From: a virus
IMG/VR virus record: IMGVR_UViG_3300014913_000082
Span: 1-23,180 of that record
DNA: 23,180 nt
Strand: one strand, 5' to 3'
The position numbers and the translations under genes are program-made. A model generated the notes under the pieces. That model did not search any database. It was not told the DNA's origin and saw only the letters and a program-made list of their open reading frames with translations. This document shows, one piece after another, positions 721 to 23,180 of this stretch (the first letter of the stretch is position 1; each line of letters starts with the position of its first letter).

Positions 721-1521
721 CTACAAAACGACCAAAAAACTGCGCGAAAAAACGCCAAGGGATGAAGTGTTCACAACCAGGGAGTACGTGTAAGTGCCGC
801 TTCCGGGGGTATCCTCAACCGCGTAAGTCAACCACCCGGCGCGGTATGAATCCTCGCCATACGTGTAAGTTATGAACGGAAGATTGCCATTTGCTAAATC
901 AGTAGACCCTCTCCGGATGGCCCATGCAGCACTACCAGTAAGGCTTAGTTCATAAAAGCAGCCAGCAAGGACAATTTTGGTCTCAGAACCTGTTGCGGTC
1001 GAAATCACGGTCACTGATTTGCTTTCCAGTGTGACCTCGCCGGTGACGTTCGTTGTGCCAGTTGAGCCTTGAACGCCACGCTCGTTTCCGTTAAGGTCCA
1101 CCACATCAATCTTCGGCCCATCATTGCTTGCCCCGGTGTGGTGGTGGCCCGATATCACGGAGTTCAAGTAAGCGAGGTTGACAGCGTCGCCCGGATTGCT
1201 GTCATCAGTCGGGGATGCCATGTTGACGACCTTGTTTCCTCCTACGTTCAGGTCGCCGCTCATGGGGTAAGAATCTCCGCCGGCCCGGGGCAGGTTGCCC
1301 ATGTAGTGAGCTGTAGCGGCTCCTATCTGCCACCAGTTGGAGCCGTCATAAATCCAGAAAGTCTTGTCGCTGGTTCGGAAGAAAAGCTGCCCGGCCACGG
1401 GGGAGCTTGGGAAGTCAGTCCCCGAAAAGCAACTCCGAAGCGTCTCAAAGTTATTGACGATTTCCTGCCGGGTGTCCGACAAGTATTCCGAGCCGTCTAT
1501 TGATTCCCAGGTCTGACTCAT
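721..1521 (-). CDS. Tail fibre / tail tip-associated protein
   Basis: This 266-aa protein starts at ATG 1521, which shares an ATGA overlap with the stop of the gpJ-like gene. Residues about 30-70 hold a motif common in phage fibre proteins, ending in a DGSNWWQIG-type turn (PVAGQLFFRTSDKTFWIYDG). Residues about 85-125 hold a fibre repeat, GDLNVGGNKVVNM followed by DAVNLAYLN, seen in many trimeric tail fibres and collar proteins, and then a GHHHTG turn. The C-terminal half is beta-rich (VTLESKSVTVIS, then YTYSLVVNTSS). Its place directly after gpJ fits a fibre or receptor-contact protein attached to the tail tip. At 266 aa it is short for a stand-alone long fibre. Receptor specificity cannot be read from the sequence. 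It ends in TAG. Confidence 0.72.
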   Translation of the reverse strand: MSQTWESIDGSEYLSDTRQEIVNNFETLRSCFSGTDFPSSPVAGQLFFRTSDKTFWIYDGSNWWQIGAATAHYMGNLPRAGGDSYPMSGDLNVGGNKVVNMASPTDDSNPGDAVNLAYLNSVISGHHHTGASNDGPKIDVVDLNGNERGVQGSTGTTNVTGEVTLESKSVTVISTATGSETKIVLAGCFYELSLTGSAAWAIRRGSTDLANGNLPFITYTYGEDSYRAGWLTYAVEDTPGSGTYTYSLVVNTSSLGVFSRSFLVVL

Positions 1522-5564: not shown

Positions 5565-5995
5565 CTATAAACTCCTAAGATCTTCCTACGGCCGATTCTG
5601 CGGGCGACCACCCCAAACTGCGGGGTGGCCTCAACCACTCTGAGATTCCCGACGTAAACGCCCACATGCGGCGGGTCTCCTTCCCGAAGCGGGGCGAAGG
5701 TTATAACGTCCCAAACTTCAAGAGCGCCCCTGACAGGCTCCCATGCTCTTTCTACGCCTTCGGGCACCTCCCGGGGCGCGGATTCCGGGCCTTGGTACTT
5801 CAGCGTCGCCTCAATGTCCACGCCGAGGCGCTTGTAGATTTCAACCACAAGGCCCCAGCAGTCGAAGCCTTCCTCGGGCGACTTACCGCCCCACTTGAAC
5901 GGCGATCCCAAAAGCGGACTATAGATAGATGCGTCCCTCGGGAATCGCCGGGAAGCCGCCGAAGTTTCGCGTGTTGTTATGCGCTCTGCAGCCAT
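5552..5995 (-). CDS. NlpC/P60 family tail assembly peptidase (gpK-like)
   Basis: This 147-aa protein is a cysteine peptidase of the NlpC/P60 fold, which cleaves peptidoglycan stem peptides. In lambda-like tails it sits at the tip and helps assembly or DNA entry. Numbering from ATG 5995, the nucleophile is Cys46 in GFDCWGLVVEIYKRLG, preceded by the usual SPFKWGGKSP loop, and the catalytic His110 is in PPHVGVYVG. The usual third polar position falls in VVEATPQ, a Glu where the family normally has His, Asn or Gln. The lambda gpK N-terminal JAB/MPN domain is absent. I chose 5995 because GGAGG lies six bases upstream. A longer in-frame start at 6028 exists without such a site. The gene overlaps the gpL-like gene by 77 bases, and its ribosome site is embedded in that gene. 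It ends in TAG. Confidence 0.88.
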   Translation of the reverse strand: MAAERITTRETSAASRRFPRDASIYSPLLGSPFKWGGKSPEEGFDCWGLVVEIYKRLGVDIEATLKYQGPESAPREVPEGVERAWEPVRGALEVWDVITFAPLREGDPPHVGVYVGNLRVVEATPQFGVVARRIGRRKILGVYRWRG

Positions 5996-7124
5996 TAGGC
6001 CCCTCCAAGGTGAGGTCACATGTCGCAAGGCCGCCGCTTGTCACGTAAAAAGCGCTCCAACGCTGAGCGACGCTTGTGCCCTGCACCGTGTTAAAAGCGC
6101 AGAAGCCGATTCTTATTGTGTCAGCTATATCAGCCCGTAAACGGCTGTCAAGCAGGATCCAATTACCCGGGCTGCCATGATATACGCTTGCCTGCTTGCC
6201 GTCGAATACGAGCCGCCAGTAGGGCATCTGGTAGCTCTCAGCAACAATCGTGCTGGATCCGGCGATCGTGTGGACGACAGAATCGCCGCTTGTGCAGCGA
6301 CGAATCGCAAACCATTTGCTGGGGGCTCCGTCGTCCATGATGAAAAACATGCCCCCATACTTGCCGTCACGACCTATGACAAACGCAATATCGCAATAGG
6401 CGTCAATATCACCGGTAAAAGTCTTGTAAATGTAGGGCGCGGTGAAGGTGTTGTCCCAAGCGGTGTAAACGCCGTTCTCGCTGTCGGACTGAATAACAAG
6501 CTCGCCGGGATAGTCAATGTCAATGTTGCACCTGGTTGCATGCGCCATATTCTTGGCCCGCCAAGACCAGGTCTGAATGTCCCCGGCTGACTTGAAGTCC
6601 ATCTTCTCAACGCTGTCGAAATATGAGTTCGGGTAGCGGCAACGTGAATCTTTGTACCGAAACCGACACTTATTCCGTATAAACCGCTGGCGAGGCAGCT
6701 TCAAGACAAGCAGGCGCTCATGGCCGAGGGTAAACGTCGCTACTTCATCTGTCGTGACAATAGCGCTTATTCTGTACGTGTAGGCCGGCACGTCCGTAAC
6801 GTCAAGGTGCTCATTGTGCACAATGTAAAGCGTTACCTGCTTGCCCGCCAGATCCGTATTCTCCAAATAGGCCGAAACCGTTCTGTCCTGGTTCGCAACG
6901 TGGACCTGCAGTTCACTGAGCGCGCCGGAAGAATCTTCCGTACTGGCGTCCACCCAAAGCGGAAAACCTGTCCAAACATGCCCATTCCAGGTCACATCGT
7001 CAGGATAAGCCGCCAGTCTGAGGTACGTGCCATCGTCAAAGTCCAGCTCGAAAAGCATGATCCAAGGCTGGGTCGAGTACAGCTTGTTTTTCTGGACAAT
7101 CAGCCGTGGATCTATCGACCTCAT
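5919..7124 (-). CDS. gpL-like tail tip protein with split iron-sulphur motif
   Basis: This 401-aa protein resembles lambda minor tail protein L, which joins the distal tail ring to gpJ and carries an iron-sulphur cluster held by four cysteines. Residues 1-145 are the beta-rich N-terminal part. Cys153 and Cys162 (NKCRFRYKDSRCRYP) form the first pair. Cys369 and Cys379 (CDLTLEGPNGCRAHNN) form the second, followed by the family ending RNFGGFPAIP. Between the pairs lies a beta-sandwich of about 190 residues (roughly 175-362), probably concanavalin/DUF1349-like, which is not part of ordinary gpL. That explains the length of 401 aa against a little over 230 in lambda. The start ATG 7124 overlaps the preceding stop as ATGA. 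It ends in TAG at 5919, inside the NlpC gene. The iron-sulphur role is inferred from family knowledge plus the cysteine spacing. Confidence 0.87.
   Translation of the reverse strand: MRSIDPRLIVQKNKLYSTQPWIMLFELDFDDGTYLRLAAYPDDVTWNGHVWTGFPLWVDASTEDSSGALSELQVHVANQDRTVSAYLENTDLAGKQVTLYIVHNEHLDVTDVPAYTYRISAIVTTDEVATFTLGHERLLVLKLPRQRFIRNKCRFRYKDSRCRYPNSYFDSVEKMDFKSAGDIQTWSWRAKNMAHATRCNIDIDYPGELVIQSDSENGVYTAWDNTFTAPYIYKTFTGDIDAYCDIAFVIGRDGKYGGMFFIMDDGAPSKWFAIRRCTSGDSVVHTIAGSSTIVAESYQMPYWRLVFDGKQASVYHGSPGNWILLDSRLRADIADTIRIGFCAFNTVQGTSVAQRWSAFYVTSGGLATCDLTLEGPNGCRAHNNTRNFGGFPAIPEGRIYL
6002..6006 (-). promoter_or_regulatory. Ribosome binding site of the NlpC/P60 gene inside the gpL-like gene
   Basis: GGAGG lies six bases before ATG 5995 and is encoded by the Leu-Glu-Gly codons of the conserved end of the gpL-like protein. 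It decides the start over the upstream in-frame start at 6028. Confidence 0.7.
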
Positions 7125-7810
7125 GACGCCTCCGGGTTCTCAATCACGGCCGCTTTTATGGTGTAATCGTCGATGAAATTCTGCTCAAACGAAATGGAGT
7201 CCTCAAGCACGTTGACAAGCGGTGACTCGGTGAAATTGTTTGAGCTCGGCGGAGCAGCACCGCCCGTGTCATATCCTGTGTCAGGCTCCGTCCACTGATC
7301 GGTTACCAATGCAGCCTGTTTATGCAGGTCATTTATGCTTGTGCCTACATAAATGTAAGCGCCCGTTGCCGACCGGGGCAGAATGCCCACCTTGACCCTC
7401 AGTACGTGGGATGCCGGACAAACCACGGTTTTGGCCGAGTCTCCGATATCGGTCTCCTTGGATGCACCCCCGGCCCACGTCTTTGCCACAACAAGCGTTC
7501 TCTGGCTCATGCTGCCCGCTTGCACAAAATCCACTTCCACTTCCGCCGCAGGAGCCGGCACAGTGTCGGGCAGCGAAATGTAAAAGGGCGTAAGAGGCCC
7601 CAAATGCGCCAGGAAAAACGCCCTGAGCTCCTGGGTCTGCTCCTTGGTGGCGTGGTTCCACTGCAACGTCCACTTGCGAATACCCTGTCGCCACTTCGGC
7701 CACATTTGAATATCGCCGGACTCGAACTCCACCCTGATAACGCGATTGTCAGCAACCTCGGGGAAAGCAAAGTCAGGTGCAAGATGTGAAGGTAAAGTGG
7801 CGTAGCTCAT
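7121..7810 (-). CDS. gpM-like minor tail / distal tail protein
   Basis: This 229-aa protein lies just before the gpL-like gene, where lambda M sits, and fits a distal tail ring subunit. The N-terminal part has the alternating W/R strands of such proteins (IQMWPKWRQGIRKWTLQW) and a PFYISLPDTVP segment. An Ig-like segment follows at about residues 100-195 with SQRTL, YVGTSINDL and WTEPDTGYDTGGAAPP. The C-terminus returns to the ring-like strands (FIDDYTIKAAVIE). The same series of motifs occurs in the middle of the 1256-aa gene immediately upstream, so the two share a duplicated module. ATG 7810 overlaps the preceding stop as ATGA, and its TGA overlaps the next ATG in the same way. The gpM/Dit-like assignment rests mainly on position and fold-like pattern, so it is moderate. 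Confidence 0.75.
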   Translation of the reverse strand: MSYATLPSHLAPDFAFPEVADNRVIRVEFESGDIQMWPKWRQGIRKWTLQWNHATKEQTQELRAFFLAHLGPLTPFYISLPDTVPAPAAEVEVDFVQAGSMSQRTLVVAKTWAGGASKETDIGDSAKTVVCPASHVLRVKVGILPRSATGAYIYVGTSINDLHKQAALVTDQWTEPDTGYDTGGAAPPSSNNFTESPLVNVLEDSISFEQNFIDDYTIKAAVIENPEAS

Positions 7811-10800
7811 CCAACATACCCCACAAAGAAATCAGCCACCCAAATGTCATACCCGGAAGCCTGAGAATCGGTTATGTCAAGCCGGATATATCGGGCGCTT
7901 ACGTCACCGAGGCTATAAATATGCGTTGCGCCCTTGGAATCGTTTGTCCGAGAAGCCACGGTCGTGTAAGAAAGGTTGTCTGTTGAGACCTTTATCGTAA
8001 CGTTCTTCGGGTTCTGATATGAATAAGGTGTATCGTGAGCCCAGGGCAGCAAAAAGGCATAATTGATTGTCTTGGTGGAGCCAAGATCTATGATCAAATA
8101 CTCGTTCGAGTCGTTTGCGGCTTTCCAGATCGATAACCTGCCCCTGTCGGTGCCCCGCTGCATGGTCGAGGTATTCGACGAGGCGTCGATTGCAGTTGCA
8201 GGGTAATAGGTAAACTCCTCGCTTGCTGAGCTCGTTACGCCAGAGCAGCCGTAATCGTCCACCGTGCTCGGGTCATACATGGTGCCATTCTGCTCGAATC
8301 CGGTGTCAGCACGAAGCTCGGCTAAGCTGTCCCAGGAATTGTCTTGACCGCTTTCAACCCCGGAGTAAGAGTCATCGTCAACCCAGAGATGCCAAGCTGA
8401 ATTGCTGTCCCAGTACATGTTGTAATCAAGCACATTGCCGCTCTGGGCCTGGAGAATAGCGAACGTTTCATAAGCGCCCTTGAACAGATTGAACCGAATC
8501 CGCCAGCCTGTCGTTGCAGGTGTTTGGCTGCTGAGCCAGAAGCCTATCCCACAGTCTTCTACGGTGTTGTGGGTAAAATAGTTAGGCCCGATGTCGTCGG
8601 TCACCTTCTTGAAGTATACACCTATGTCGCAGTCGATTATCCAGTTGTTGATAAACGTAAGGTGCGAGCTATCCTCCTCGGGCGATATGCCAGTCCAGCA
8701 GCGGAAAATGTAATTGTCCGAGGTTGTGACACCCTTGCAGCGGATGGTCCGAATGCCCTCCTTCCGGCAAAGGTAAATGGTATTCCCGGTTATCTGAGAC
8801 TCGGTAAGCCTGGAAGCGTAGATCCCGAAAGCTTCCGAATTGTGATAGATGTGATGAATCAAGTTGTTCCGGATGACATGGCCTGATCCATGGTAGTAAG
8901 TCCACCCGTCATTCTGCCCGATAACAGCTATCCCCCGCTCAGAGCAGTTATGGACGTGGCAATTCTCAATCGTCCAGGAATCTCCCCGGTAGCATCTGAT
9001 GCCCTGTGACGGACCGGTTACTTCAAGGTTGTCTATCGTGATGCCGGTGAGATAGTCCCCCCAGATGCCGTACGTATCGCTTGTCTCCAGTATCGCCCCG
9101 TCTTCGCAACGTATTGTCACATTGTCGCGCAGAAGCTCAACGCTTTCGTTATAAGTCCCTGCTCGGACGATGATCGTCTCGCCAGATTGCGCCGCTTGGA
9201 CAGCGCGTCCTATGGTCTGAAAAGGCTCAGAAGATGTTCCCGGGTTGCTGTCATCACCTGAAGGATCAACATACCAGTCACCTACAAGTCCGGCCGAGGC
9301 GGAGGCCGAAACTGAAAGTTGCGGCAACTCCACCGATCCTGTGCTCGCTACAGGGCTCGTACAGGAGCCAGAAGAGGTCAAGGCCGGCAAAGTCACAGCA
9401 CCACGGGCTGTTTGATCTCTTGCCGTAGCTGCAGCGATAAGAGCCGGTAGCGTAACCTCAGCGCTTGCCTTGTTAGGCTGTAGCTTCGCAGAGGCTGAAG
9501 AATTTAGGCTGGGCAAGGAGATATATCCGGTGCCGTATACCGCCTTCTTGGTGGCCGGGAAAAGCTCCACAAATGTGGCGCTTAGCGTCCACCTGCCGGC
9601 CGCATTCTTCGTGGCCTCGTTATCGGCGAGAGTGACAAGCACGGTTTCGCTGAGCGAATTGACGGAAGGAGGATTGGCCCCGCTTGTGTTATAGCCTGCG
9701 TCCGGTTCGGTCCAGGTGCCGCCGGATTCCGAGATGACGCCCTGATACTTGAGATCATTCGCCGAAACGCCCACATAGACGCCAGCAGCAGTGACGCCCC
9801 GAGGAAAAACCGGCACTGTGACGGTCAGCTTGTAATTGGCAGGAACCGTTATCGAGTCAATGTTGTAACATATTGGCGTTTCGCCGCTTACGCCCTGCCA
9901 AGTGTACCCTACATAAAGTGTCCTTTGACTTGGAATGTTTCCGCCTGTTGTGACGCCAAGGGTGGGAGCCATCCAGGGCCTGGGCACGACATCGGGCACT
10001 TCTATGTAAAAGGGCCTGCTGCCGCCGGCATGATCCCGCACAAAGGCCCTGAACACCTCCGCCTCGTCTGAAAAGGCATTTCTGTTGATAAATCGCCATG
10101 AGCGTCGTGCTCGCTGGTTCCGAGCGCGTCTCTTTATGATGCCGTAATTTGTAGGCGAAGTCAGAACGTCGTACTGGTAAATCTCCGACCAGGGATATTC
10201 GGGATGCAATGGCCAGGTTTCATATTCGTAGACGACGCCCGTTCTTGTCCATGAGGTCGCGGCTTCAACTTTAAATTGGTTAAGCTCAACTGCCGGAGAC
10301 ACGGAGTATTGCTTCCTTAGAACAGAATCAGTTGTTATCAGCAGTTGCGGCAGCGTTGACGCACCGCTTGTCTCCCACTCGGTGGCAATCTGCGCCGCTC
10401 CATTTACATTGAGCTGGGGCAAGCTCACAGCGGCGACACAGGGAATATCCTGGTCGGCTCCGATATTCCAAGACGAAATATCAGTTAAATCGATGCCGTC
10501 GCAATCTTCGGTAACAGCCAGGTTGGCATCGCTGCTTAGGTCGGTCCCGTTGCCCCTTGCGTTTGAATCGGTCGAACCTAAGTGAAAATCGTCGCCTGAC
10601 TCATCCCGAAACGTAACGACGCCGTCAGTGCCGTTCCTGGAGTTGGAACCGGGCGCGTCACCTGAAATATCCGAAGCGTTGTAATCAGAGCTTGCGCTGA
10701 AGGAGCCTGAAAAGCCGTTCGCGCAATCATTAGTGATCGTATTCTTTACGGTAATGGTGGAATCGGTGGAATAAATCCCGAAATAGCAATTATGAATCGT

Positions 10801-11577
10801 GCAGTTGTGAATATATGCAGCGCTCCCACCATTCCAGTAGATGCCAGCACAGGCGTTGTTTGTTGAATTCCTTGCGTCATATATGATCGTATTGCGGACC
10901 TTGAGGTTAACGTTCGTGCTGTATGCCCTTATGCCGCGACGCCAATAGCTGCTGTTGTTATTGTCGTTGAACCGGATTATACACCGGTCAACCAGGATCT
11001 CGCTTGAGCTTGATTGCCCGGTGAGATAAATGCCGTAAGTGTTGCCGCTTGTAGTTCCGTATATCTGGATGCCGTAAAGCTCCACATGGTCTACACTGAT
11101 TGAAAGCATCTTATAAGCGGCACCCTCGATTCTGTAGAGTCCGGAGCTCCAGACCCCCTTAGGCGGCGTTGCTGCACGGATCTTGATCTTCGCTGAAGAA
11201 GACGTCGTAATCCCCGAGATCGTTAGGGCCGAATCAGCAGAGCCGTTTGTTGCAACCTGCGCATACGGATTGGCCACATCGCCGGAATCGCTTATGTAAA
11301 CATAGTTGTTGGCATCGACGTATACCTTCTCCCCGGGCTGGAAGGTGCCGCTTATGCTGTGAAGATAAATCTGGCTGCTTGTGCAGTGAACGACGGTGGC
11401 CGTAGCCCCGCTTGTTGCGCCGGTAACAGAATCTCCGTCCGATATTGTGCCTGTAACTCCTCCGTGCGAGAAGACCTTGGCTGTAGTGAGGTCGGTCGGC
11501 AAAGCCGCAATGAAAGATGCCAGCGACGTATAATCGGCCTGTCCTGGTCCTACTTGACAAATAAAATCGGTGCTCAT
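7807..11577 (-). CDS. Chimeric tail tip protein: beta-helix, gpM-like core, second beta-helix, discoidin-like domain
   Basis: This 1256-aa protein is built of distinct parts. Residues 1 to about 370 look like a right-handed beta-helix (repeated Asn/Ile/Gly turns such as VRNTIIYDA and IHNCTIHNCYFGIYS, ending WNIGAD). Residues about 425-675 match the gpM-like protein encoded next door (PFYIEVPDVVP, SQRTLYVGYTW, YVGVSANDL, WTEPDAGYNT). Short LPxL repeats flank this core. Residues about 769-1060 form a second beta-helix opening with WYVDPSGDDSNPGTSSEPFQ, typical of pectate-lyase-like or DUF1565 proteins. Residues about 1112-1256 resemble an F5/8-type C (discoidin) carbohydrate-binding domain. A hub-anchored adhesin or depolymerase is likely, but I cannot assign catalytic residues. 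The start ATG overlaps the tape measure stop as ATGA. The gene sits between tape measure and gpM, where lambda has none. Confidence 0.8.
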   Translation of the reverse strand: MSTDFICQVGPGQADYTSLASFIAALPTDLTTAKVFSHGGVTGTISDGDSVTGATSGATATVVHCTSSQIYLHSISGTFQPGEKVYVDANNYVYISDSGDVANPYAQVATNGSADSALTISGITTSSSAKIKIRAATPPKGVWSSGLYRIEGAAYKMLSISVDHVELYGIQIYGTTSGNTYGIYLTGQSSSSEILVDRCIIRFNDNNNSSYWRRGIRAYSTNVNLKVRNTIIYDARNSTNNACAGIYWNGGSAAYIHNCTIHNCYFGIYSTDSTITVKNTITNDCANGFSGSFSASSDYNASDISGDAPGSNSRNGTDGVVTFRDESGDDFHLGSTDSNARGNGTDLSSDANLAVTEDCDGIDLTDISSWNIGADQDIPCVAAVSLPQLNVNGAAQIATEWETSGASTLPQLLITTDSVLRKQYSVSPAVELNQFKVEAATSWTRTGVVYEYETWPLHPEYPWSEIYQYDVLTSPTNYGIIKRRARNQRARRSWRFINRNAFSDEAEVFRAFVRDHAGGSRPFYIEVPDVVPRPWMAPTLGVTTGGNIPSQRTLYVGYTWQGVSGETPICYNIDSITVPANYKLTVTVPVFPRGVTAAGVYVGVSANDLKYQGVISESGGTWTEPDAGYNTSGANPPSVNSLSETVLVTLADNEATKNAAGRWTLSATFVELFPATKKAVYGTGYISLPSLNSSASAKLQPNKASAEVTLPALIAAATARDQTARGAVTLPALTSSGSCTSPVASTGSVELPQLSVSASASAGLVGDWYVDPSGDDSNPGTSSEPFQTIGRAVQAAQSGETIIVRAGTYNESVELLRDNVTIRCEDGAILETSDTYGIWGDYLTGITIDNLEVTGPSQGIRCYRGDSWTIENCHVHNCSERGIAVIGQNDGWTYYHGSGHVIRNNLIHHIYHNSEAFGIYASRLTESQITGNTIYLCRKEGIRTIRCKGVTTSDNYIFRCWTGISPEEDSSHLTFINNWIIDCDIGVYFKKVTDDIGPNYFTHNTVEDCGIGFWLSSQTPATTGWRIRFNLFKGAYETFAILQAQSGNVLDYNMYWDSNSAWHLWVDDDSYSGVESGQDNSWDSLAELRADTGFEQNGTMYDPSTVDDYGCSGVTSSASEEFTYYPATAIDASSNTSTMQRGTDRGRLSIWKAANDSNEYLIIDLGSTKTINYAFLLPWAHDTPYSYQNPKNVTIKVSTDNLSYTTVASRTNDSKGATHIYSLGDVSARYIRLDITDSQASGYDIWVADFFVGYVG
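9309..10432 (-). repeat. LPxL short protein repeats flanking the gpM-like core
   Basis: Six copies of a hydrophobic-x-LPxL motif followed by a Ser/Ala-rich strand lie within the 1256-aa gene: VSLPQLNVN, STLPQLLIT, ISLPSLNSS, VTLPALIAA, VTLPALTSS and VELPQLSVS. Two precede and four follow the gpM-like core. They look like extended linker strands. The copies are similar in protein and diverged in DNA. Confidence 0.6.
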
Positions 11578-13987: not shown

Positions 13988-14352
13988 TTTTTTACCTCGT
14001 CCTCCCCGAGCTCGTTGAACCGCCAGGCAGCGTCTGAAAGTTCAAAACGCTGCGCTGTGCTGAGCAACGCAAGGCATTCGTCCGTCACCTTGCCGTCGGC
14101 ATCGGTTACAAAAGGCACGTCTTTGCCCTTGTCATCCTTGAGATTCCGCCAGCCGACAAGGCTGTTCTTAAGCACCTTGTATGCAAAGGTGCCCATCGGG
14201 AAGCGATCAACAGACGCTGATGTAAGCACATCTTCGCACTCAGCGCGTTCTCGGGCCGTAAGCGGCCTGAAGACGAAGATGGTCGGCTCTTTGCTGTTCC
14301 GGTCCTCTCTCAAAACGTATTCCAGCTTGTCCTTCCTACTGATTACGATCAT
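13984..14352 (-). CDS. Tail assembly chaperone (gpG-like)
   Basis: This 122-aa protein lies between the tail tube and tape measure genes, the fixed place of the lambda G/T pair, and has the expected size and acidic, helical composition. It contains FVFRPLTARERAECEDVL near residues 26-43, a pattern like the RxLTxxE-type helix of other chaperone or tail proteins. The ATG at 14352 has a perfect AAAGGAGG site seven bases upstream, so it should be made in quantity, as needed for the unshifted chaperone. Translation normally stops at TGA 13984. A fraction of ribosomes is expected to slip on AAAAAAC just before it and make the longer form. Identification rests on position, size and the frameshift signal rather than on a strong sequence motif. 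Confidence 0.85.
   Translation of the reverse strand: MIVISRKDKLEYVLREDRNSKEPTIFVFRPLTARERAECEDVLTSASVDRFPMGTFAYKVLKNSLVGWRNLKDDKGKDVPFVTDADGKVTDECLALLSTAQRFELSDAAWRFNELGEDEVKN
13987..13993 (-). promoter_or_regulatory. -1 ribosomal frameshift slippery heptamer A AAA AAC
   Basis: The end of the first chaperone frame reads GAG GTA AAA AAC TGA, so the heptamer A AAA AAC is in the right register for tandem slippage and sits directly before the zero-frame stop. Slipping one base back joins exactly the frame of the downstream open reading frame. Confidence 0.88.
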
Positions 14353-14376
14353 GCCATTCCTCCTTTCGATTGCCGG

Positions 14377-15312
14377 TTACACGTGATCGATCATAAGCTC
14401 GTCATCGCCGCTGTCAGCCCTGAGCTTAAAAGTGATCGTATCAACCGCAACGCCGTCCCTGTCTCCGTCCTCACGGCCTATGACCTGAAACTTGGGCGCG
14501 CTGAACGACAACTTATTGCCGGTGCTTGTGCCAAGGTCAAAGGAAAAGGTGCCCGTTGTGGGCGTCGTTATATGGCTGATCCAGTCCTGGGTCGCAACAA
14601 GCACCTTGTCCGGATCAATCGTTCCACCAGGGTCACGCGCGGTGATGATCGCGTAAGAGAGACCATTAGCGGCGTTTGCGTCCTGCCGAATGGTCACCTC
14701 GTTGTTCATGTCGATCGTAAGGGCGCTTACCACCGCAGTTGTCCACGAAGCCCCGAAATTGAAGCTGATTGAGGCGTTTTTCCATGTTACCGGAATCGTC
14801 GATTCATACGTCGGGGACCACATGGAAGAGTCCGTCGTATCGTCGAAGATTCCCGTGAAGGTAAACGTGGCGTAGGCAACCTGGTTGGCTGCAAACTCAA
14901 AAGACACGTTCCCTCGGGCTCCGTAGATCAGATCAAGTCTGCCGTCGTTGTTGACCCCAATGGTAAGCGTCGGGATCGAGTCCTCGTCACTTGTCGGCGT
15001 GTAGTAAACCGAATCGGCGTCTGTAGTCTCCTCAAAACCGCAGGCCCGAAGCAGCGTGCCCCAAGAGGGCGCGGTTGTGGCGGTGCCTGAGCCTTTAAGC
15101 TCCACCCTGCAAGTGATCGTCCCGATCTTCGCACCGGGTAGAGAGACAAGCGGTGAAATCGAAGACCGTAGTGGGTCTCTCACCACCTCTTCCGGGCTGA
15201 ATGAGACGGAAATCTCATCGCAGAGAATGTTGGCGTCAGCATCTGCGAGGGTCTCCTTGGTCCCCTTGGTGCTTTCGACCTTCGCAGCGAGCTGTTTCTT
15301 CCTGCTGAGCAT
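14377..15312 (-). CDS. Major tail tube protein
   Basis: This 311-aa beta-rich protein has the layout of siphovirus tail tube subunits: a short basic N-terminal helix (MLSRKKQLAAKVESTKGT), then ILCDEISVSFSPEEV and long alternating strands rich in Thr/Ser/Asp (IGTITCRVELKGSG, GNVSFEFAANQVAYATFTFT), with WGTLLRACGF near residue 84. Hundreds of copies stack as rings around the tape measure. The ATG at 15312 has an AGGAGG ribosome site seven bases upstream that begins within the stop of the tail terminator gene (TAAGAGGAGG), consistent with strong expression. At 311 aa it is larger than lambda gpV, so an extra surface domain is possible. It ends in TAA. The gene is followed by the frameshifting chaperones, which supports the call. 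Confidence 0.87.
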   Translation of the reverse strand: MLSRKKQLAAKVESTKGTKETLADADANILCDEISVSFSPEEVVRDPLRSSISPLVSLPGAKIGTITCRVELKGSGTATTAPSWGTLLRACGFEETTDADSVYYTPTSDEDSIPTLTIGVNNDGRLDLIYGARGNVSFEFAANQVAYATFTFTGIFDDTTDSSMWSPTYESTIPVTWKNASISFNFGASWTTAVVSALTIDMNNEVTIRQDANAANGLSYAIITARDPGGTIDPDKVLVATQDWISHITTPTTGTFSFDLGTSTGNKLSFSAPKFQVIGREDGDRDGVAVDTITFKLRADSGDDELMIDHV

Positions 15313-15326
15313 TTCAATGCCTCCTC

Positions 15327-15776
15327 TTATACAGCGGTGTACGGGTCACCCAAACGGTGCCTGTAAATGACCTCGACTTCAAGGTTACAGGCCCCAAGCG
15401 GGGCGACTTCCTCCGATATATCGTAAACAATGCCGACGACACGAGTGTCCAATGCAAGCCCGCCGCGGGTCGGGTCCACATGTAACGCTTTTGTTATATC
15501 CGCAGCGAGCTTATGCACTGCGTCCACCGTATCGTCGGCATCACTTGCTATGCCGAGAACCGAAATCGTTGCTTTCGATTCCTTAACCTGCACCGCCAAG
15601 TCCGTTTTCTCCTCCGAAACGGCCGCCATGAAAACGGCATCATATTGCGGCTGCGCAGGCATGAGGCTCATTCGGGAGGTTGTGCGCACGGTCCGCTCGT
15701 ACCCGTTCGTCGGGCTGATCTGGCCGATTGCAGCCACCATGTTGTCCATAATCTGCGTAAGCAGCGGATCAGCCAC
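15327..15776 (-). CDS. Tail terminator protein
   Basis: This 149-aa protein sits between the head-tail joining gene and the tail tube gene, the usual place of the lambda gpU-type terminator that caps tail polymerisation. It has an N-terminal helix (LLTQIMDNMVAAIGQI), a central strand/helix region with DAVHKLAADITKALHVDP, and a C-terminal strand series (VVGIVYDISEEVAPLGACNL, then EVEVIYRHRLGDPYTAV). That C-terminal pattern, in which a measured-value strand is followed by an R-x-GDP ending, is familiar from terminator-like phage proteins. It begins with GTG at 15776, overlapping the upstream stop by eight bases, so translation is likely coupled. It ends in TAA. The family assignment is moderate to good. 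Confidence 0.8.
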   Translation of the reverse strand: MADPLLTQIMDNMVAAIGQISPTNGYERTVRTTSRMSLMPAQPQYDAVFMAAVSEEKTDLAVQVKESKATISVLGIASDADDTVDAVHKLAADITKALHVDPTRGGLALDTRVVGIVYDISEEVAPLGACNLEVEVIYRHRLGDPYTAV

Positions 15777-16350
15777 GTCTCAGCTCCTCCCTTGCGCGCT
15801 TGGCAAGCTCGGTTACAAGCGGTCTGAGCCTCCCCTCAACGTGTTTGCGGAATCTAAGCTGCGGCCGGACCCTTGCCTGTGGGACAAGAAGATACCAGGG
15901 TCGCGGAGGACGCTTCCGAATATCAGCCAAGAAGGCATGCCCGGAGCTCGATCTCCAGAGCTTAATATGCTTGGGCAACGTCCGGCGTAGAGGCGATCGG
16001 AACACCTTGCGGTGCTTAATTCTGTCCCAAATGGGAATCGCCAGGACTTTGGCCTTTACCGGCCTGACTATGCCGCCGTACTCAAGCAACCGCGCCTGAA
16101 CTGCATCGCTTTGCAACGCCGCCGATAAAGTGCCTATCTTGTTGGTCCCTTTTACCAAATAGGTAAAACTCCTTGCCAGGGATCCGCTTCGGCTATGCAC
16201 CGTGCCCCTGCCGGCTCCCAGCTTAGCCCTGAAGAGCTTAAGCGTGCGTCGCGCCCAGAATCCGAGCCCCTTCCTGAAGCCCCTTGCAAGTCGCTGGTGC
16301 GCTTTGATAAGGCTGTTTATGTGTCGCCATTTGATCGTTGCGATGATCAA
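15769..16350 (-). CDS. gp10-like head-tail joining / virion morphogenesis protein
   Basis: This 193-aa protein is very basic (many Arg/Lys, such as RKGLGFWARRTLKLFRAKLG). It contains the features of HK97 gp10-like morphogenesis proteins: a GSLARSFTYLV segment near residue 57, and RLLEYGGIVRPVKAKVLAIP near residues 87-106, where an E-Y-G-G turn is followed by a hydrophobic A-I-P strand. Such proteins connect the head adaptor ring to the tail and are needed for completion. The predicted start is TTG at 16350, which overlaps the previous stop as TTGA. No better start with a ribosome site is visible nearby, so initiation probably depends on coupling. It overlaps the tail terminator gene by eight bases. 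The high Arg content is unusual and could reflect contact with DNA or with an acidic ring. Confidence 0.78.
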   Translation of the reverse strand: MIIATIKWRHINSLIKAHQRLARGFRKGLGFWARRTLKLFRAKLGAGRGTVHSRSGSLARSFTYLVKGTNKIGTLSAALQSDAVQARLLEYGGIVRPVKAKVLAIPIWDRIKHRKVFRSPLRRTLPKHIKLWRSSSGHAFLADIRKRPPRPWYLLVPQARVRPQLRFRKHVEGRLRPLVTELAKRAREELRRG

Positions 16351-16928
16351 ATCTGGGGCCTCCTATGGCTCAGAAGGGTCCTTCTCACCTCCGGCAGCCA
16401 CTCAACACCGGCTACAATCTCCAAGGTTTGGCCGCTAAGTGTCGTGGAAGCCACCTGGCCTAAACGCTTTCGCGTGTTCCAGTAATAGATCACCTGCCGG
16501 GCCACCGCGTGGCTTACGTCCGGCATTGCCGTTTTGAACGACGATGTGTCCGACGCAACCCCGCCTGTGTAGACGATCCTGAGCGCTTGGCGGCCATGTG
16601 TGAGCGTGCTGGTATAAAATGTGACGATACCCAATTCGTCGTTTGTGATGTAATCATCGGTGTCCATATCGTCCGTGTTGTCCCAGTCCCAAGTGGGGTC
16701 ATTCTTGACGCTTGTTATGCTTGAGACCGGGTAAGCCTTCAGAGCGAAGACAAGCTGCCCGGGGAAGACATCGAAAATCTCGGTGTAGCTTCCCGTTTCC
16801 AGGGTCCGCCCCATGAACTGCTCGGCTTCCTTGGATACAGCGCTTATAAGCAAACCGAGCTCCGTATCGTAGTCGTTGCTCGTTATTCCAAGGAGCGATT
16901 TAACGTCGGCAAGAGGGCAAAGATCCAC
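16347..16928 (-). CDS. gp6-like head-tail connector (adaptor) protein
   Basis: This 193-aa protein matches the HK97 gp6 type of connector, which forms a ring below the portal. The N-terminus carries the family pattern CPLADVKSLLGITSNDYD followed by LGLLISAVSKEAEQFMGR, the two helices of the adaptor. A strand region follows (PVSSITSVKND), then GRQALRIVYTGGV and PDVSHAVARQVIYYW, the conserved C-terminal helix. The start is GTG at 16928, sharing one base with the upstream TAG (TAGTG). It ends in TGA, overlapping the next start. The acidic stretch DWDNTDDMDTDDYITND (about residues 81-97) is an unusual surface loop between strands and appears to be an insertion. Confidence 0.88.
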   Translation of the reverse strand: MDLCPLADVKSLLGITSNDYDTELGLLISAVSKEAEQFMGRTLETGSYTEIFDVFPGQLVFALKAYPVSSITSVKNDPTWDWDNTDDMDTDDYITNDELGIVTFYTSTLTHGRQALRIVYTGGVASDTSSFKTAMPDVSHAVARQVIYYWNTRKRLGQVASTTLSGQTLEIVAGVEWLPEVRRTLLSHRRPQI

Positions 16929-17170
16929 TACTTGGCCTCCTCAGGGGCTACGAAAGCGGTACACCGCTTAGGTCCTTTCATGGCTCGTGTCGCAGGCTTT
17001 GGCTTTCTCTGCCTTTTCGGCACCAAGTCAAAGGGAAGCTCGTCGAGAATGTGCCTAAGGCCCGATTTGTTCACGTCCTCTTCGTCCATGTAAAAAACGT
17101 CCCAGCCTGCCCGGACAAAACGATAGCGGAAACTGCCGTTTCGTTTGACGCGCCATTTCTTAAGCGCCAT
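16928..17170 (-). CDS. Small basic phage protein between capsid and connector (80 aa)
   Basis: This 80-aa protein starts at ATG 17170 with AGGAG eight bases upstream. A longer open frame to 17347 exists but would overlap the capsid gene by 100 bases, so I reject it. The sequence begins MALKKWRVKRNGSFRYRFV, has a short acidic middle (YMDEEDVNK), then LPFDLVPKRQRKPKPATRAM and a basic tail. It has no membrane segment. Genes in this position often encode small head-completion or capsid-associated proteins, but I do not recognise a family. It ends in TAG, overlapping the start of the connector gene by one base. It lies just after the hairpin downstream of the capsid gene, so its expression may be lower than that of the capsid. 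Confidence 0.72.
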   Translation of the reverse strand: MALKKWRVKRNGSFRYRFVRAGWDVFYMDEEDVNKSGLRHILDELPFDLVPKRQRKPKPATRAMKGPKRCTAFVAPEEAK

Positions 17171-17178
17171 GAGCTGTA

Positions 17179-17183
17179 CTCCT
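17179..17183 (-). promoter_or_regulatory. Ribosome binding site of the 80-aa gene
   Basis: AGGAG lies eight bases before ATG 17170. It decides the start over the longer open frame that would overlap the capsid gene. Confidence 0.7.
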
Positions 17184-17191
17184 CTCGCTAT

Positions 17192-17226
17192 AAAAGGGGC
17201 CGGGAGGGGGCGCTCAGACCCCCTCC
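17192..17226 (-). terminator. Possible weak terminator or processing hairpin after the capsid gene
   Basis: In the transcript, GGAGGGGG pairs perfectly with CCCCCTCC over eight base pairs around an eight-base loop (TCTGAGCG), at 17203-17226. A short T run (TTTT, 17192-17195) follows after a seven-base spacer (CGGCCCC). The stem is strong, but the T run is short and displaced, so this is at best a partial terminator. It lies in the longest intergenic gap of the window, where such an element would lower downstream expression or protect the capsid message. Confidence 0.5.
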
Positions 17227-17247
17227 AGACCGCCACTGCTGCGGCGA

Positions 17248-18534
17248 TTACGTGGTCGTATCGGTGCACACGCACGCGGATTCGGGATTGATCATCCCGA
17301 CATCCACGGTATAGACAGCCTTCACCTCCACGAGGTGCTTGGCCCAAGCATCGCCTCCAACCGAGGTCGAAGCCAGCTCAAGCCCGCCCCACTCGCAGAG
17401 AATGACATCCGGCACACGGACCAGCATAAGCGTTGCTTCGTTGCTGCCGGTACCTCCGTCAACCGTCAAGTTTGAGGTCGTGTAGACGGGAATACCGTAC
17501 AGCCTCGGCGAATACGCCTGCTGCTGGGTCGGATTGATCACGAAATTGTTGGACTCGGAGTTCTTCACGAACCCGAGAATGCCGTACCAGGTCCTCGGGT
17601 GCATGAACCAGGCGCATTCGTCAAGCGGCACATCGTCTGTTTCAAGCTCCTTCATGAAATCGCGGAGCTTGTCGAACGTTATTGCCGCCGAACCGGCGCT
17701 TACAGTATTCACACCGCTTGTATTGGCAATGCCAGTTGGCTGTCCCGACGAACCGCTTCCTTCGAGGATTGCGTCGTCAACAGCGCGGGCCAGTTCCTCG
17801 CCGAGGATCCTGCGTACAATGGTCTCAGCAGCAAGCTCACTCGACCGGACGAGGAATTGAGTGAGCTGCACCCTGCCGACACACCAGTGCGGGTTGAGCT
17901 GGAGCTGGGCGGTCTTCATGGCTGTATCGGCCGTGATGGTGTCGCCCTCGTTTGCCAACCAGCTTGTCGTCGGTGCATCGGTTACCTTCGGGATCTGGAC
18001 CGGGGCACCGGTTGCTTGAAGAACCGTGCAGCCAGCCTTCCTGGCAACGATCTTTGCACCGTAATAGGTGAAGAATTCGTCAGCCAAAAAATCACCGGCT
18101 ACAAAGTCCGAGCCTTCAGCGGTTCCGCCGCCGTAGCTCAGGGTCTTGTAGTACCCCTCCTTCTGGGCGATCTCGGCGCTGGCTTCAAGCGCCATCTTCT
18201 CAAACGGCGCATGCTTCCAGTCACCTGTCATCTTCGCCCGGATATACCGCACGAAGGAGAACTCGTCATAAGGAATCTTGCCGCTCTTACGGATCTTCTC
18301 AAGAAACTTGGCCTGCATTTCCTTTGTGCGTTCGGCCACTTCCTCAGGATCGTAAGAGCTCCAGCTCTGCACCACTTTGGCGACCTTGGAGTCCGACTGC
18401 TCTTCAGCCTCAGCTTTTGCCTTGGCCTCGGCGAGAACAGTCACCTTCTGCGCAAGCGGCTTTACCGCTTCCTCAACGGCCTTGTTTATAAGCTCGTTGA
18501 GCTGCGTTTGAGTAAGCTCAATCGTCTTGCTCAT
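17248..18534 (-). CDS. Major capsid protein (HK97 fold)
   Basis: This 428-aa protein has the two-part layout of HK97-type capsid precursors. Residues 1 to about 110 form a charged, helical, coiled-coil-like segment (QTQLNELINKAVEEAVKPLA and an Ala/Glu/Lys-rich stretch), the expected delta scaffolding domain removed by the prohead protease. The shell part follows, with GGGTAEGSDFVAGDFLADEF, the strand series VQIPKVTDAPTTSWLANEGD, LARAVDDAILEGSGSSGQPT near residues 252-271, and an E-loop/P-domain region ending with VEVKAVYTVDVGMINPESAC. ATG 18534 follows a GGAGGGAG site and overlaps the protease stop by 17 bases. It ends in TAA. The cleavage site cannot be placed exactly. It probably lies between residues 100 and 120. 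Confidence 0.93.
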   Translation of the reverse strand: MSKTIELTQTQLNELINKAVEEAVKPLAQKVTVLAEAKAKAEAEEQSDSKVAKVVQSWSSYDPEEVAERTKEMQAKFLEKIRKSGKIPYDEFSFVRYIRAKMTGDWKHAPFEKMALEASAEIAQKEGYYKTLSYGGGTAEGSDFVAGDFLADEFFTYYGAKIVARKAGCTVLQATGAPVQIPKVTDAPTTSWLANEGDTITADTAMKTAQLQLNPHWCVGRVQLTQFLVRSSELAAETIVRRILGEELARAVDDAILEGSGSSGQPTGIANTSGVNTVSAGSAAITFDKLRDFMKELETDDVPLDECAWFMHPRTWYGILGFVKNSESNNFVINPTQQQAYSPRLYGIPVYTTSNLTVDGGTGSNEATLMLVRVPDVILCEWGGLELASTSVGGDAWAKHLVEVKAVYTVDVGMINPESACVCTDTTT

Positions 18535-20119
18535 GGTCGTTATCTCCCTCCATTTTGATTCTGATGGTCATTTCTTCGTTCCGTTCATCCGATGGGGGGT
18601 CGTCCGCTACGATACGAAACCTAAGCGGAGATTTACCTTGGCCTTGCTCCTGCTTCTGCCTTTCGTTCTCCCCTTGGGGAGCCGATTCGGCTTTCCGCTC
18701 GGGAGCAAATGCCTCGATAAGTTCCACCCAGATGTCGTCTATGAACTTCAGCAAGTCAGGGTGATCCTTCACCCACTTCTTCGCCTTGTCAATGGTCCAG
18801 CCGTCGTCCTTCGGGAACCGAAGGCTTTGAATTTTGGTGGTGTTCTGCCCCTTGGGCCTGCCTATTACAGCGAAAACCCTCGGCTTGGACTTCTTAAGCG
18901 TTATCCTTCGGAAGCTGTCCTTCTCAAACTCGTCCGGGTCGCGGACACGATACTTGATCTCGGTCCAACTTTCCGAGTCTTCCCAACCCGGCTTTGTTAC
19001 AACCTCGGGCGCTTCTTTGAACTCAGGAGGCTCTTTCCCGAACTGCTTGTAATGCTGCGCCAAGTGGTTGTAAACGCCTTTGCGGTCCTTCTCCGGAATA
19101 TCGGTCTTTCCCTGCATGAGCCGGGCCATGGCCGCAGCAACCCCGCGCCAGACAACAGGCTGGGCACCGTCGCCTTTGTGATGCGGCAGCTTATACCATT
19201 GCCGCTCTGCAGGATCAAAACCGTCTGCAGAGGAGTTGACCCAGGCGTGCATTCGACGCAGCTTCTTGGCATCGCCGGTTGCCTTCTTCAGCTCTTCACC
19301 TGCATTCCAAGGCGTATCTTCAGGAGCTTTCGGCCCGTCGCCGTGCACCGAGTAGGGAATCGCCCCCTTTATCTCGACTCCTTCGTAGGGGTCTTCCTCG
19401 GATTTCGGCGCCGGCGCTTCCTCCTCTTTCTTCTCCTGCGCTTCACTTTTTTTGCCCTGCTCCTCAAGCTGCTTCTTTATCCGGGCTGTTGTGTGAAGCG
19501 CTTCGTATGACTGGATCAAGTCCAGGTGGGCCATTGCAAGCTCAACCTCACGCGGGACTTCCACCTGGCCGTTTGAGATGGCCTTGCGCAGGGCCTGGGG
19601 ATTCGCCGGGACCGGGCAAATCGAAAGCTCCCAGAGCTCCTTTTTCTCGAATTTAAGCCCGGGCCTTAGGTCCGGATTCTCCTCAAGGCGCTTTTCGAGC
19701 TCTTCCTCGCTTTCCTCGATCGGCTTTGACTTCAAGCTCTGGAAGCCGACGGAAACGGCATTGAGAAAGCCCCCGTCCACCAACTTGCGTATCTGCTCTG
19801 CAAAAGGATTGGCATCTTCCGGGGCGAACTCGACCTCAAAGACCCAGCCGTAGTTGCCGTCCGGGGTTTTCCCTTTCTTGATCTGCAGCGTCCTTCCAAC
19901 AGGCGGCAGATCGTATCTATGAGCCCACAAGACGACGGGGTTACGCAGGTAATTGTCAAACTGCCAGCCGTCAAGCGGGATCTCATCGCCCATTCGGTCC
20001 CGGATCGCGGTTGTGCCGATGAACCTGTACACGCGGTCCTTGTCCGGTACGGACCGCACCTGGCAAAAAAGCGTTCCTCTGTCCAACTTGGCAATGTCGG
20101 GTTTGCTCTGGTTACCCAT
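18518..20119 (-). CDS. Prohead protease (HK97 U35 type) with long C-terminal extension
   Basis: With the ATG at 20119 this is a 533-aa protein. Residues about 25-180 are the herpes/HK97-type serine protease: His67 in VVLWAHRYDLPPVGR and Ser123 in LNAVSVGFQSL are the probable catalytic pair, followed by the conserved ELSICPVPANP. It matures the capsid by removing scaffolding domains. Residues about 205-245 are charged and coiled-coil-like. Residues about 250-365 hold a module with WYKLPHHKGDGAQPVVWRG and GVYNHLAQHYKQFGKEPP. Residues about 387-450 hold FRRITLKKSKPRVFAVIG and RFPKDDGWTIDKAKKWVKDH, motifs seen on other phage head proteins. The extension may act as extra scaffold or bind the portal (inference). 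Start 20119 is preferred over TTG 20164 because of GGAG nine bases upstream and an eight-base overlap with the previous gene. The HK97 protease itself is about 225 aa. Confidence 0.9.
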   Translation of the reverse strand: MGNQSKPDIAKLDRGTLFCQVRSVPDKDRVYRFIGTTAIRDRMGDEIPLDGWQFDNYLRNPVVLWAHRYDLPPVGRTLQIKKGKTPDGNYGWVFEVEFAPEDANPFAEQIRKLVDGGFLNAVSVGFQSLKSKPIEESEEELEKRLEENPDLRPGLKFEKKELWELSICPVPANPQALRKAISNGQVEVPREVELAMAHLDLIQSYEALHTTARIKKQLEEQGKKSEAQEKKEEEAPAPKSEEDPYEGVEIKGAIPYSVHGDGPKAPEDTPWNAGEELKKATGDAKKLRRMHAWVNSSADGFDPAERQWYKLPHHKGDGAQPVVWRGVAAAMARLMQGKTDIPEKDRKGVYNHLAQHYKQFGKEPPEFKEAPEVVTKPGWEDSESWTEIKYRVRDPDEFEKDSFRRITLKKSKPRVFAVIGRPKGQNTTKIQSLRFPKDDGWTIDKAKKWVKDHPDLLKFIDDIWVELIEAFAPERKAESAPQGENERQKQEQGQGKSPLRFRIVADDPPSDERNEEMTIRIKMEGDNDHEQDD

Positions 20120-20411
20120 CTTTAGCCGCTCCGTTTCCATTGAGCTTGTCAACTTTCTGTTCAAGAAGCCGAACGCTCACAATCAGCTCACCGAGTTTCT
20201 CGTTGAGCATGTTCTGTATCTGGGCGAAACGCTCGACCATTTCTGTATGCCATGAAGCCTCGCGTTCGCGCTGCCTGTCAAACTGCGTCTCTATCTCTTT
20301 CAGCCGCATTTTCAGGTTTCTCACTGCAAGACCCAAGTTCGCCGCGTAAGCTATGGCCGCAGCGGCCGTCGCAAAAACAGCCACCAAACTCTGAAGTTCC
20401 CCTATCTCCAC
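20112..20411 (-). CDS. Small membrane-anchored coiled-coil protein
   Basis: This 99-aa protein starts with GTG at 20411. Residues about 7-29 form one hydrophobic segment rich in Ala and Val (LQSLVAVFATAAAAIAYAAN). Residues 32-91 are a charged amphipathic helix with heptad-like spacing (RLKEIETQFDRQREREASW, then IQNMLNEKLGELIVSV), a likely coiled coil. No cleavable signal is evident. It sits between portal and protease, where HK97-type phages usually have few genes. Membrane-plus-coiled-coil proteins occur in phages as holin-like or XhlA-like proteins, but here the membrane segment is at the N-terminus and the location is unusual for lysis. It could instead be a portal- or scaffold-associated helper. 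The role is unknown. It overlaps the protease gene by eight bases and ends in TAA. Confidence 0.75.
   Translation of the reverse strand: MEIGELQSLVAVFATAAAAIAYAANLGLAVRNLKMRLKEIETQFDRQREREASWHTEMVERFAQIQNMLNEKLGELIVSVRLLEQKVDKLNGNGAAKDG
20129..20132 (-). promoter_or_regulatory. Ribosome binding site of the prohead protease
   Basis: GGAG lies nine bases before ATG 20119. It supports this start rather than the in-frame TTG at 20164 or ATG at 20140. Confidence 0.6.
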
Positions 20412-20431
20412 TTCTCAACTTTCCTCTCAAC

Positions 20432-21433
20432 TCAAAGTTGCACATTCAAAGCTGTCTCCACCATGTCCTTCAAAGTTCGCCTGGCAGCCTTAACGCCGTC
20501 GGCAAGGCCGCGTTCGGCGATTTCTCTTCTCAACTGCCTGTAAATCTCGCTTGCAAACTTCCCCGGGGTCCATGCCGGCCTGGCACCGTTGCCCGTGGCT
20601 TCCTTCACCGCAAGCTCAAAGGATTCAAACAGCTCAGCCACCCTCTGCTCAAACGCTTCACAAGCCTGGGCCGGGATCTCAATGGTATCACCCGGCTTGG
20701 CCCGCTCAGCTTGCTTTCTGAGCCTGAGCTTCACCTTCTGGAAAAAGCCCCTCGTGGCGGTGAGAAGCTCCGCTTTGTAGGGCCTTGCAAGGTCCATTAA
20801 GAAATCAAGGCTGGGACCGGGTGTAGCTGAAGGCCGCTCCTGAAAGTGCTGCCATTCGTCGGTAGGCGTGGCGTCACTGCGTTCCGCGGGCGTTGACGTT
20901 GGATGGGTCCTGGCAGAGACAAGGGGCTTCCCATAGGGAGCCACGTTCACAGGTACAAAGGAGGTATCGCCAACACCAGGTAGGTTAGGGAAACCCAGCC
21001 CCAGCCTCTCGTTGATCACATTAAAAGGCACTCCCATGTTCCAGAGCTTAACCGCACGGGCAAGCTTGGCATCAAGAAGCTCCTGGAGCGCTGAGACCTC
21101 CGTAAGGTCAAAAGCCCCACGGGGACTTGTAGGCTCCACCTTGAGCGGGTCGTCCTCAATCGGAGCCCAAAGCTGCGAGTCAAGCGTGGCCTCGATCAGC
21201 CTTATAAGCGGAAGGACGGTGCCCTCCCAAAATTGGCGGTGAATGGTGTCAGCCGTCGCCTTGTACACTCGCTCCATAACGCCGAGAAGCGAGCTCGGCA
21301 CGTTGAAAACAGCACAGATCTCTTCCCTTGTGAGCTTCCTCTGGTCAATGAAGAGCATGTCATCATGGCTGATCGTGAAGGGGTCGTAACTTACACCGCC
21401 TTCAAGGAAGATCGTGCGGAAGGCTTTTTGCAA
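20432..21433 (-). CDS. Portal protein, C-terminal part downstream of an in-frame stop
   Basis: This 333-codon stretch is in the same frame as the N-terminal portal part and is separated from it by one TAA and 14 sense codons (KKLIEEQFSAKYEG). The first possible start is TTG 21433, which has no properly spaced ribosome site, so independent translation is doubtful. The sequence continues the HK97 portal with FRTIFLEGGVSYDP, then SHDDMLFIDQRKLTREEIC, FNVPSSLLGV (the usual I-C-x-x-F-x-V-P helix) and the ADTIHRQFWEGTVLPLI helix. The standard portal ends near residue 170 of this part (FVPVNVAPYGKPL). About 160 further residues form a helical extension. Read through, the portal would be about 577 aa. 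It is either a disrupted gene, a readthrough product or a sequencing error. Confidence 0.75.
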   Translation of the reverse strand: MQKAFRTIFLEGGVSYDPFTISHDDMLFIDQRKLTREEICAVFNVPSSLLGVMERVYKATADTIHRQFWEGTVLPLIRLIEATLDSQLWAPIEDDPLKVEPTSPRGAFDLTEVSALQELLDAKLARAVKLWNMGVPFNVINERLGLGFPNLPGVGDTSFVPVNVAPYGKPLVSARTHPTSTPAERSDATPTDEWQHFQERPSATPGPSLDFLMDLARPYKAELLTATRGFFQKVKLRLRKQAERAKPGDTIEIPAQACEAFEQRVAELFESFELAVKEATGNGARPAWTPGKFASEIYRQLRREIAERGLADGVKAARRTLKDMVETALNVQL

Positions 21434-21475
21434 CCCCTCGTACTTTGCGCTGAACTGCTCTTCTATGAGTTTCTT

Positions 21476-22165
21476 TTACTCTTGAGTTAGGAGGCGATCG
21501 ACCTTCAGGACCCCGCCCGGGTTGGCTGAGTTCTCAAAATAGCTCTTGTTGAAAAGCATTGCGGCCCAGTCCATTTGGACCGACAGCTTGGCCGCCTCAA
21601 GCGGGCTGAGGCCCCAATCAAGAGGGCCGCCGTAGGGGTTGTAAAGTCTGCACCAGACGATCTGATAGGGGGCGAGCTCAATGGGAGGCTCAGAGGGCCG
21701 GTTCGGGGGGCGATAGATCCAGCTTTTAACAGTGTTGGACTTCTTGTCCGTAACAAGCTGGAACCTCTTGTGGCTCAGAACCACAATCCGCTTGGGCGCT
21801 TCGCGCCAACTGCGACGGTCAAGCACCCAAATGGCGTTTCCGTTGAGAAGAAGCGTGGTAACCGTGGCGGACCACAGGTCCCCGTGGTTCCAGTACTGGT
21901 TCGGCTGCCTGAAAACACGCCACCAGGGGCCGCTTGTTATAGGCCCGCTTCCTGAGAAAAGCCTGTAGGGGACAGAGGCCACACGGCTGCTTATGGCGTT
22001 TACCGCAGCGTAAACCCAAGGATGCTGCGCATACGGCTTGTCAATATCAGTGCCTGCAACCTTGATGGGGTTTACAACGGCCCAGGACTTCTCAAGGTAG
22101 TTGTCAAGAGCCGTCTTGGTCCTTCCCCTCTGTCGCCTGAAAAGCCCAAGGATCTTGCGAAACAA
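21476..22165 (-). CDS. Portal protein, N-terminal part ending at a premature TAA
   Basis: This 229-aa part begins with TTG at 22165 with GGAGG about nine bases upstream. It shows HK97-family portal features: QHPWVYAAVNAISSRVASVP near residues 47-66, GNAIWVLDRR, LSHKRFQLVTDKK, WCRLYNPYGGPLDWGLSPLE and FENSANPGGVLKV. The family continues without interruption at this point, but here the frame meets TAA at 21478-21476 (CTA ACT CAA GAG TAA AAG AAA). One base change (TAA from CAA) would restore Q and a standard reading through KKLIEEQFSAKYEGLQ. The portal forms the dodecameric DNA entry ring at the head vertex, so truncation should abolish function. The gene lies 21 bases after the terminase stop and just upstream of the small membrane protein gene. 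Confidence 0.82.
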   Translation of the reverse strand: MFRKILGLFRRQRGRTKTALDNYLEKSWAVVNPIKVAGTDIDKPYAQHPWVYAAVNAISSRVASVPYRLFSGSGPITSGPWWRVFRQPNQYWNHGDLWSATVTTLLLNGNAIWVLDRRSWREAPKRIVVLSHKRFQLVTDKKSNTVKSWIYRPPNRPSEPPIELAPYQIVWCRLYNPYGGPLDWGLSPLEAAKLSVQMDWAAMLFNKSYFENSANPGGVLKVDRLLTQE

Positions 22166-22186
22166 TCGAGCCGCCCTCCACAGGGA

Positions 22187-23180
22187 TCAGCCAAGCAGCG
22201 TAACCCGCACTCCAATGCCGCTTCCCACTTGGCGGACTTGAGAAACGGCGTAGCAAAGTGCGTCCGCCAGGTCGTCATGCCGGCCGTGCGGGTACTCCAA
22301 AAGTTCCTGCACAAGTTCCTTGAGCTGTCCCTCCACAGGTCTCTTTAATACCACCAGTCCGGACTCAAGTAAAGAAGCAAGCCTGCAAAGCCTAAGTTCC
22401 TTGGGGAGATTACCGGTACTTTGGGGATAAATGGGAAGGCTCAAGGTTGACGCAAGTTCCCGCACGATCTCAGCTTGCGCCTGGACGCTTTCTATGAAAA
22501 TGGCCCGAAGTCCCGGGGCGAATCTCTTGGCGTATTCCGGCAAGAACCGCTTCAAGTACGTAATGCTGACCCCACGCCTGGCCCAAGCGTCCACCACATA
22601 AGCCTTCGGACCATGCTGGCAGACCGTCACAATGGCAGTCCTGTCGCTTCCAGGCTTCGCACTGAAGGCCAAGTCCATGCCCATGTAGTAAATGAAAGGG
22701 CCTTCAGAAGGCAGGTCCTCTTCGCTTATGTATTCCTCCTTGAAAAGCAGCTCTTCGGAGGAGACCGGCTTGCAGTGAAACGCACGGGCAAAAGCGTGGG
22801 AACCTATGGCCTGCTGCTGCTGGATAAGCCTTTCCTTGGGCCAGACCTCGGGCCAGAGCGGCTTGAGGTCCTCGGTTATCCTGCGCTCAAAAACGGCAAA
22901 AGAGCCGCTCCTTCGCATGCGCATTAAAGCGTCGTCAGAATGCCAAGGCGTTCCGATCCACCAAATCCTGCCGCCTGCGGGGTGAAGGAGGTTGAACCAT
23001 TTGTTCACAACGGTTTCGTGCACTTCGTCCCGCCTGCGTTTTGAAAACAGGCTGTTTCGGTCGTCCGTAACGTCGTCAAGGACGAGAAGATCGCACCTGT
23101 CCCCTGTAGCTGAGGTCGTAACGCCGTAAGCTTCAACCGAAGGGTCAATCGCCCCTGACTGTCGCACAACCGTGATAGAG
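22187..23180 (-). CDS. Terminase large subunit, C-terminal part (5' end beyond right edge)
   Basis: The frame stays open to the right edge. The GTG at 23167 is an internal codon, because sense codons continue upstream of it, so the N-terminus with Walker A lies outside. Numbering from that codon, Walker B is LLVLDD with D31/D32, followed by the IGTPWHSDD coupling motif near residues 71-79. The RNase H-like nuclease begins with D165 in YYMGMDLAF, then E226 in AIFIES, and HDDLADA (D298, D299, D302) close to the C-terminus. These acidic residues bind the metal ions that cut concatemeric DNA during packaging. All expected nuclease residues are visible, so this half appears intact. The gene ends in TGA 21 bases before the portal start, the standard terminase-portal order. 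Confidence 0.95.
   Translation of the reverse strand, partial: SITVVRQSGAIDPSVEAYGVTTSATGDRCDLLVLDDVTDDRNSLFSKRRRDEVHETVVNKWFNLLHPAGGRIWWIGTPWHSDDALMRMRRSGSFAVFERRITEDLKPLWPEVWPKERLIQQQQAIGSHAFARAFHCKPVSSEELLFKEEYISEEDLPSEGPFIYYMGMDLAFSAKPGSDRTAIVTVCQHGPKAYVVDAWARRGVSITYLKRFLPEYAKRFAPGLRAIFIESVQAQAEIVRELASTLSLPIYPQSTGNLPKELRLCRLASLLESGLVVLKRPVEGQLKELVQELLEYPHGRHDDLADALCYAVSQVRQVGSGIGVRVTLLG

Follow-up and report, generated by a model that had tools for sequence, protein, structure and literature searches.

An in-frame TAA in the HK97-type portal gene of a metagenomic phage contig is a private difference, very probably a consensus error or a recent mutation

The in-frame TAA that interrupts the portal gene of a 23,180-base virus record, analysed here over its full length as the window, is confirmed in the contig sequence; its meaning is ordinary, and it is no real functional signal. 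The stop would be a private point difference in the consensus of one contig, devoid of programmed function, and is very probably either a consensus error or a recent real mutation. The window carries tailed-phage head and tail genes, almost all on the minus strand. Its portal frame, of HK97 type, runs on that strand from a TTG start at 22165 to a TGA stop at 20432 and is cut after codon 229 by the TAA at 21476–21478 (codon 230), which is the only interruption. The 5' part (21476–22165, minus strand) encodes 229 residues from the TTG, with GGAGGG about 9 bases upstream, and the 3' part (20432–21475, minus strand) continues for 347 codons to the TGA, with neither a start codon nor a ribosome site near its beginning. 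Between the TAA and the next possible start, a TTG at 21433, lie 14 codons (21475–21434). The reading frame bears out the coordinates and the 14 intervening same-frame codons given in a preliminary description of this DNA, as well as its remark that neither a ribosome site nor an ATG directly follows the stop; a reinitiation signal is absent there.

The identity of the gene is clear from the joined 577-residue frame, which matches the family Phage_portal (PF04860) with an E-value of 9e-58 and 196 bits, the curated cut-off being 39. Taken separately the two halves score 92 and 86 bits and cover profile positions 2–173 and 177–278; they are thus nearly contiguous on the profile, so nothing of note is lost between them. 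Searches against PHROG (12 and 2662) and the PDB concur, the nearest solved structure being the HK97-family portal Rcc01684 of the Rhodobacter gene transfer agent (PDB 6tba/6te8), which matches residues 45–329 of the window portal. The read-through frame matches PF04860 over residues 50–342, as in HK97-type portals, and differs from the family core in a C-terminal extension of about 230 residues that is also found in both close relatives. The gene also sits where an HK97-type portal is expected, in the order terminase (large subunit, 22187–23179), portal, head protease (18518–20164) and capsid (17248–18534). Unlike HK97-type portals, the window's copy is not a single uninterrupted frame, being broken by one in-frame stop behind codon 229, whereas both close relatives are open; this concerns the state of the window's copy and not its kinship with PF04860.

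The evidence that bears most directly on the stop comes from two close relatives, found among viral contigs and originating from different metagenome datasets. Both are 98% identical to the window in DNA and colinear over all 577 portal codons, differing at 31 and 43 of 1,734 bases, and in both the portal is open throughout with a glutamate codon at the position of the TAA, which argues for an error or a mutation. The longer relative, a 35-kb fragment, covers 14178–23180 of the window and the shorter one 16914–23180. One of them (L011, contig 3300033156_001193) carries 18 inserted bases immediately ahead of the portal start, at about 22163 of the window, and with them a GGGAG of its own that lies upstream of the TTG. 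In a wider profile search of viral contigs, 75 portal homologue loci were recovered and 74 of these align across the site, where the residue is Q in 50, E in 6, A in 6, S in 4 and T in 3, with five others. A stop stands at this position in none of the 74; the alignment program penalises stops heavily, so that their absence from an alignment would not suffice as proof, but here the alignments run through the site. A 16-base pattern including the stop gave 97 matches in viral contigs, the window's own record excluded, a length at which chance matches are expected, and these were set aside. When the pattern was lengthened and given the sense codon, it matched only the two known relatives. No match was obtained in a DNA search of annotated phage records, a protein search returned 992 phage records, all below 60% identity, and no relative was found among bacterial and archaeal genomes. 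The preliminary description had derived the TAA from a glutamine codon and taken CAA in relatives as the mark of an error. Glutamine is indeed the commonest residue among the distant homologues (50 of 74), but for the near kin the guess was wrong, both having glutamate. A sense codon does stand at the site in both relatives, and in substance it speaks against readthrough as the description had anticipated.

Of the three options raised at that stage, a sequencing or assembly error and an inactivating mutation survive, whereas readthrough by a suppressor does not, the stop being found in 0 of 74 homologues. We give a consensus error in the assembled contig roughly an even chance and slightly favour it over a real mutation, although the error itself is something we infer; its source could be sequencing, low coverage or the mixing of strains. 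Tailed phages cannot form virions without a portal, and a genotype that has lost it would therefore not be expected to spread as the dominant one. Support for a local error also comes from three window-specific substitutions at 21478, 21483 and 21488 (minus strand), which comprise a nonsense change, a P-to-Q missense change and a synonymous one. They are spaced 5 bases apart and fall within 11 bases; the remainder of the interval from 21314 to 21611 is free of window-specific sites. Under a uniform model, a given substitution would have two others within 10 bases of it with a probability of 0.037, and this was observed for 10 of the 76 substitutions in 18000–23180; a triple of this kind is expected somewhere in the region in 39–46% of random draws. 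Hence, the cluster hints weakly at a local error, and against an error it can be said that the two companion changes are mild and could be real divergence. The notion that the P-to-Q change is harmful was dropped, since Q occurs often in that column, in 9 of 74 homologues. A second dense patch, five window-specific differences in 8 bases at 20893–20900, alters portal codons 422–425, where the C-terminal extension has a variable linker.

The chance that the stop is a real and recent nonsense mutation, and the sampled genome that of a defective phage or of a prophage just starting to decay, falls somewhat short of even. According to this explanation, the 229-residue fragment could not form a portal ring and no DNA-filled heads would be made unless an intact phage helped. 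Prophages do acquire genuine nonsense changes, the TAA is one substitution away from the relatives' glutamate codon, a random single substitution in the portal gene yields a stop in about 3.7% of cases, so that no special cause is needed, and the neighbouring differences can be read as ordinary divergence between strains. Weighing against a loss is the pattern of substitutions at which both relatives agree and the window differs, a comparison that leaves the direction of change unassignable at the DNA level, the next relatives being at about 30% protein identity. Synonymous and missense substitutions of this kind number 6 and 0 in the terminase, 10 and 3 in the portal upstream of the stop, 6 and 6 in the portal downstream of it, and 27 and 8 in the protease. 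Five of the six missense changes after the stop are in codons 423–435, four of these within 7 bases. Judged from these counts, the 5' part of the portal gene and its neighbours look like genes under purifying selection, and the signal is less clear in the 3' part because of its variable stretch. This fits a portal that worked along almost all of the window's branch, in which case the stop would be either very recent or not real. Also, no other gene is interrupted among those compared, and no tyrosine integrase was found in the 35-kb relative, itself a fragment; together with the mostly synonymous change on the 5' side, this means that any loss must be very recent. The first two of these observations leave the earlier suggestion of a decaying prophage without support.

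Phage stop-codon recoding and suppressor readthrough likewise place a stop in frame within a conserved structural gene. However, recoding in phages assigns TAG or TGA to an amino acid, whereas here the case is single, the codon is TAA, and TAA terminates elsewhere in the window. The five other genes that had been named as ending in TAA are all real, with ends at 322, 14377, 15327, 17248 and 20112, and four of them lie within a stretch common to a relative, in which the TAA end is kept. Nine genes were compared with one or both relatives (the terminase fragment, portal, a 99-aa protein, protease, capsid and four downstream genes); an internal stop occurs only in the window's portal and a frameshift in none. 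The earlier argument against general recoding of TAA therefore holds, and a reading of TAA as sense throughout is excluded for practical purposes.

Functional readthrough or suppression of this one TAA, yielding a short and a full-length portal, is very unlikely. The sole point for it is that the frame stays open and portal-like past the stop; the stop is found in no relative and no homologue, and five genes truly end in TAA, four of them likewise in a relative. ARAGORN detected no tRNA gene in the window or in either relative's contig, all three being fragments. The base after the TAA is A, a context that, to our knowledge, is not among the leaky ones, and a literature search on portal readthrough returned nothing. 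Conditional ochre readthrough with two portal lengths, as first proposed, is thus unsupported, and so is the suppressor tRNA that it invoked. That the population truly carries the TAA and makes its portal by host-dependent suppression, the stop acting as a host-specific switch, has an even slimmer chance. Least probable of all is a split portal, with a second polypeptide initiated from within the gene. The TTG at 21433, 14 codons downstream of the stop, could serve as its start, but a purine-rich GAGGGG abuts this codon without the usual spacing and leaves no room for a ribosome site, the codon is CTG, outside the accepted set of start codons, in one relative, and no homologue is split at the site; reinitiation there is unsupported.

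Several other features of the window were noted. Between 16700 and 18000, a span that takes in two thirds of the capsid gene, on its C-terminal side, and the small gene that follows, identity to both relatives falls from about 97–99% to about 80–88% and returns to 95–99% beyond; the boundary near 17975 is sharp, which suggests that the capsid allele is recombinant. Among the tail genes, 7807–11577 (minus strand) encodes a 1256-residue protein in which residues 452–671 are 35% identical to the complete 229-residue protein encoded next to it (7121–7810), of which they form a diverged copy; a right-handed beta helix comes after this copy, as does an F5/8 type C (galactose-binding-like) domain. 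From its sequence, this tail protein was apparently built by duplication and the addition of sugar-binding or depolymerase-like parts. In family scans, the lambda-L-like (5919–7124, minus strand) and J-like (1518–5564, minus strand) tail tip proteins gave partial matches only; their unmatched stretches, for instance residues 180–370 of the L-like protein, appear similar to one another by eye and may be lectin-like insertions.

The consensus error or recent mutation that we favour leaves the stop without wider consequence, and the phage population would most likely produce, like its relatives, an intact HK97-type portal of normal length, about 577 residues. If real, the stop would indicate that the phage is defective, or that it is a prophage whose decay has barely begun. 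Private stops in metagenomic contigs should be compared with relatives before they are read as recoding or readthrough.
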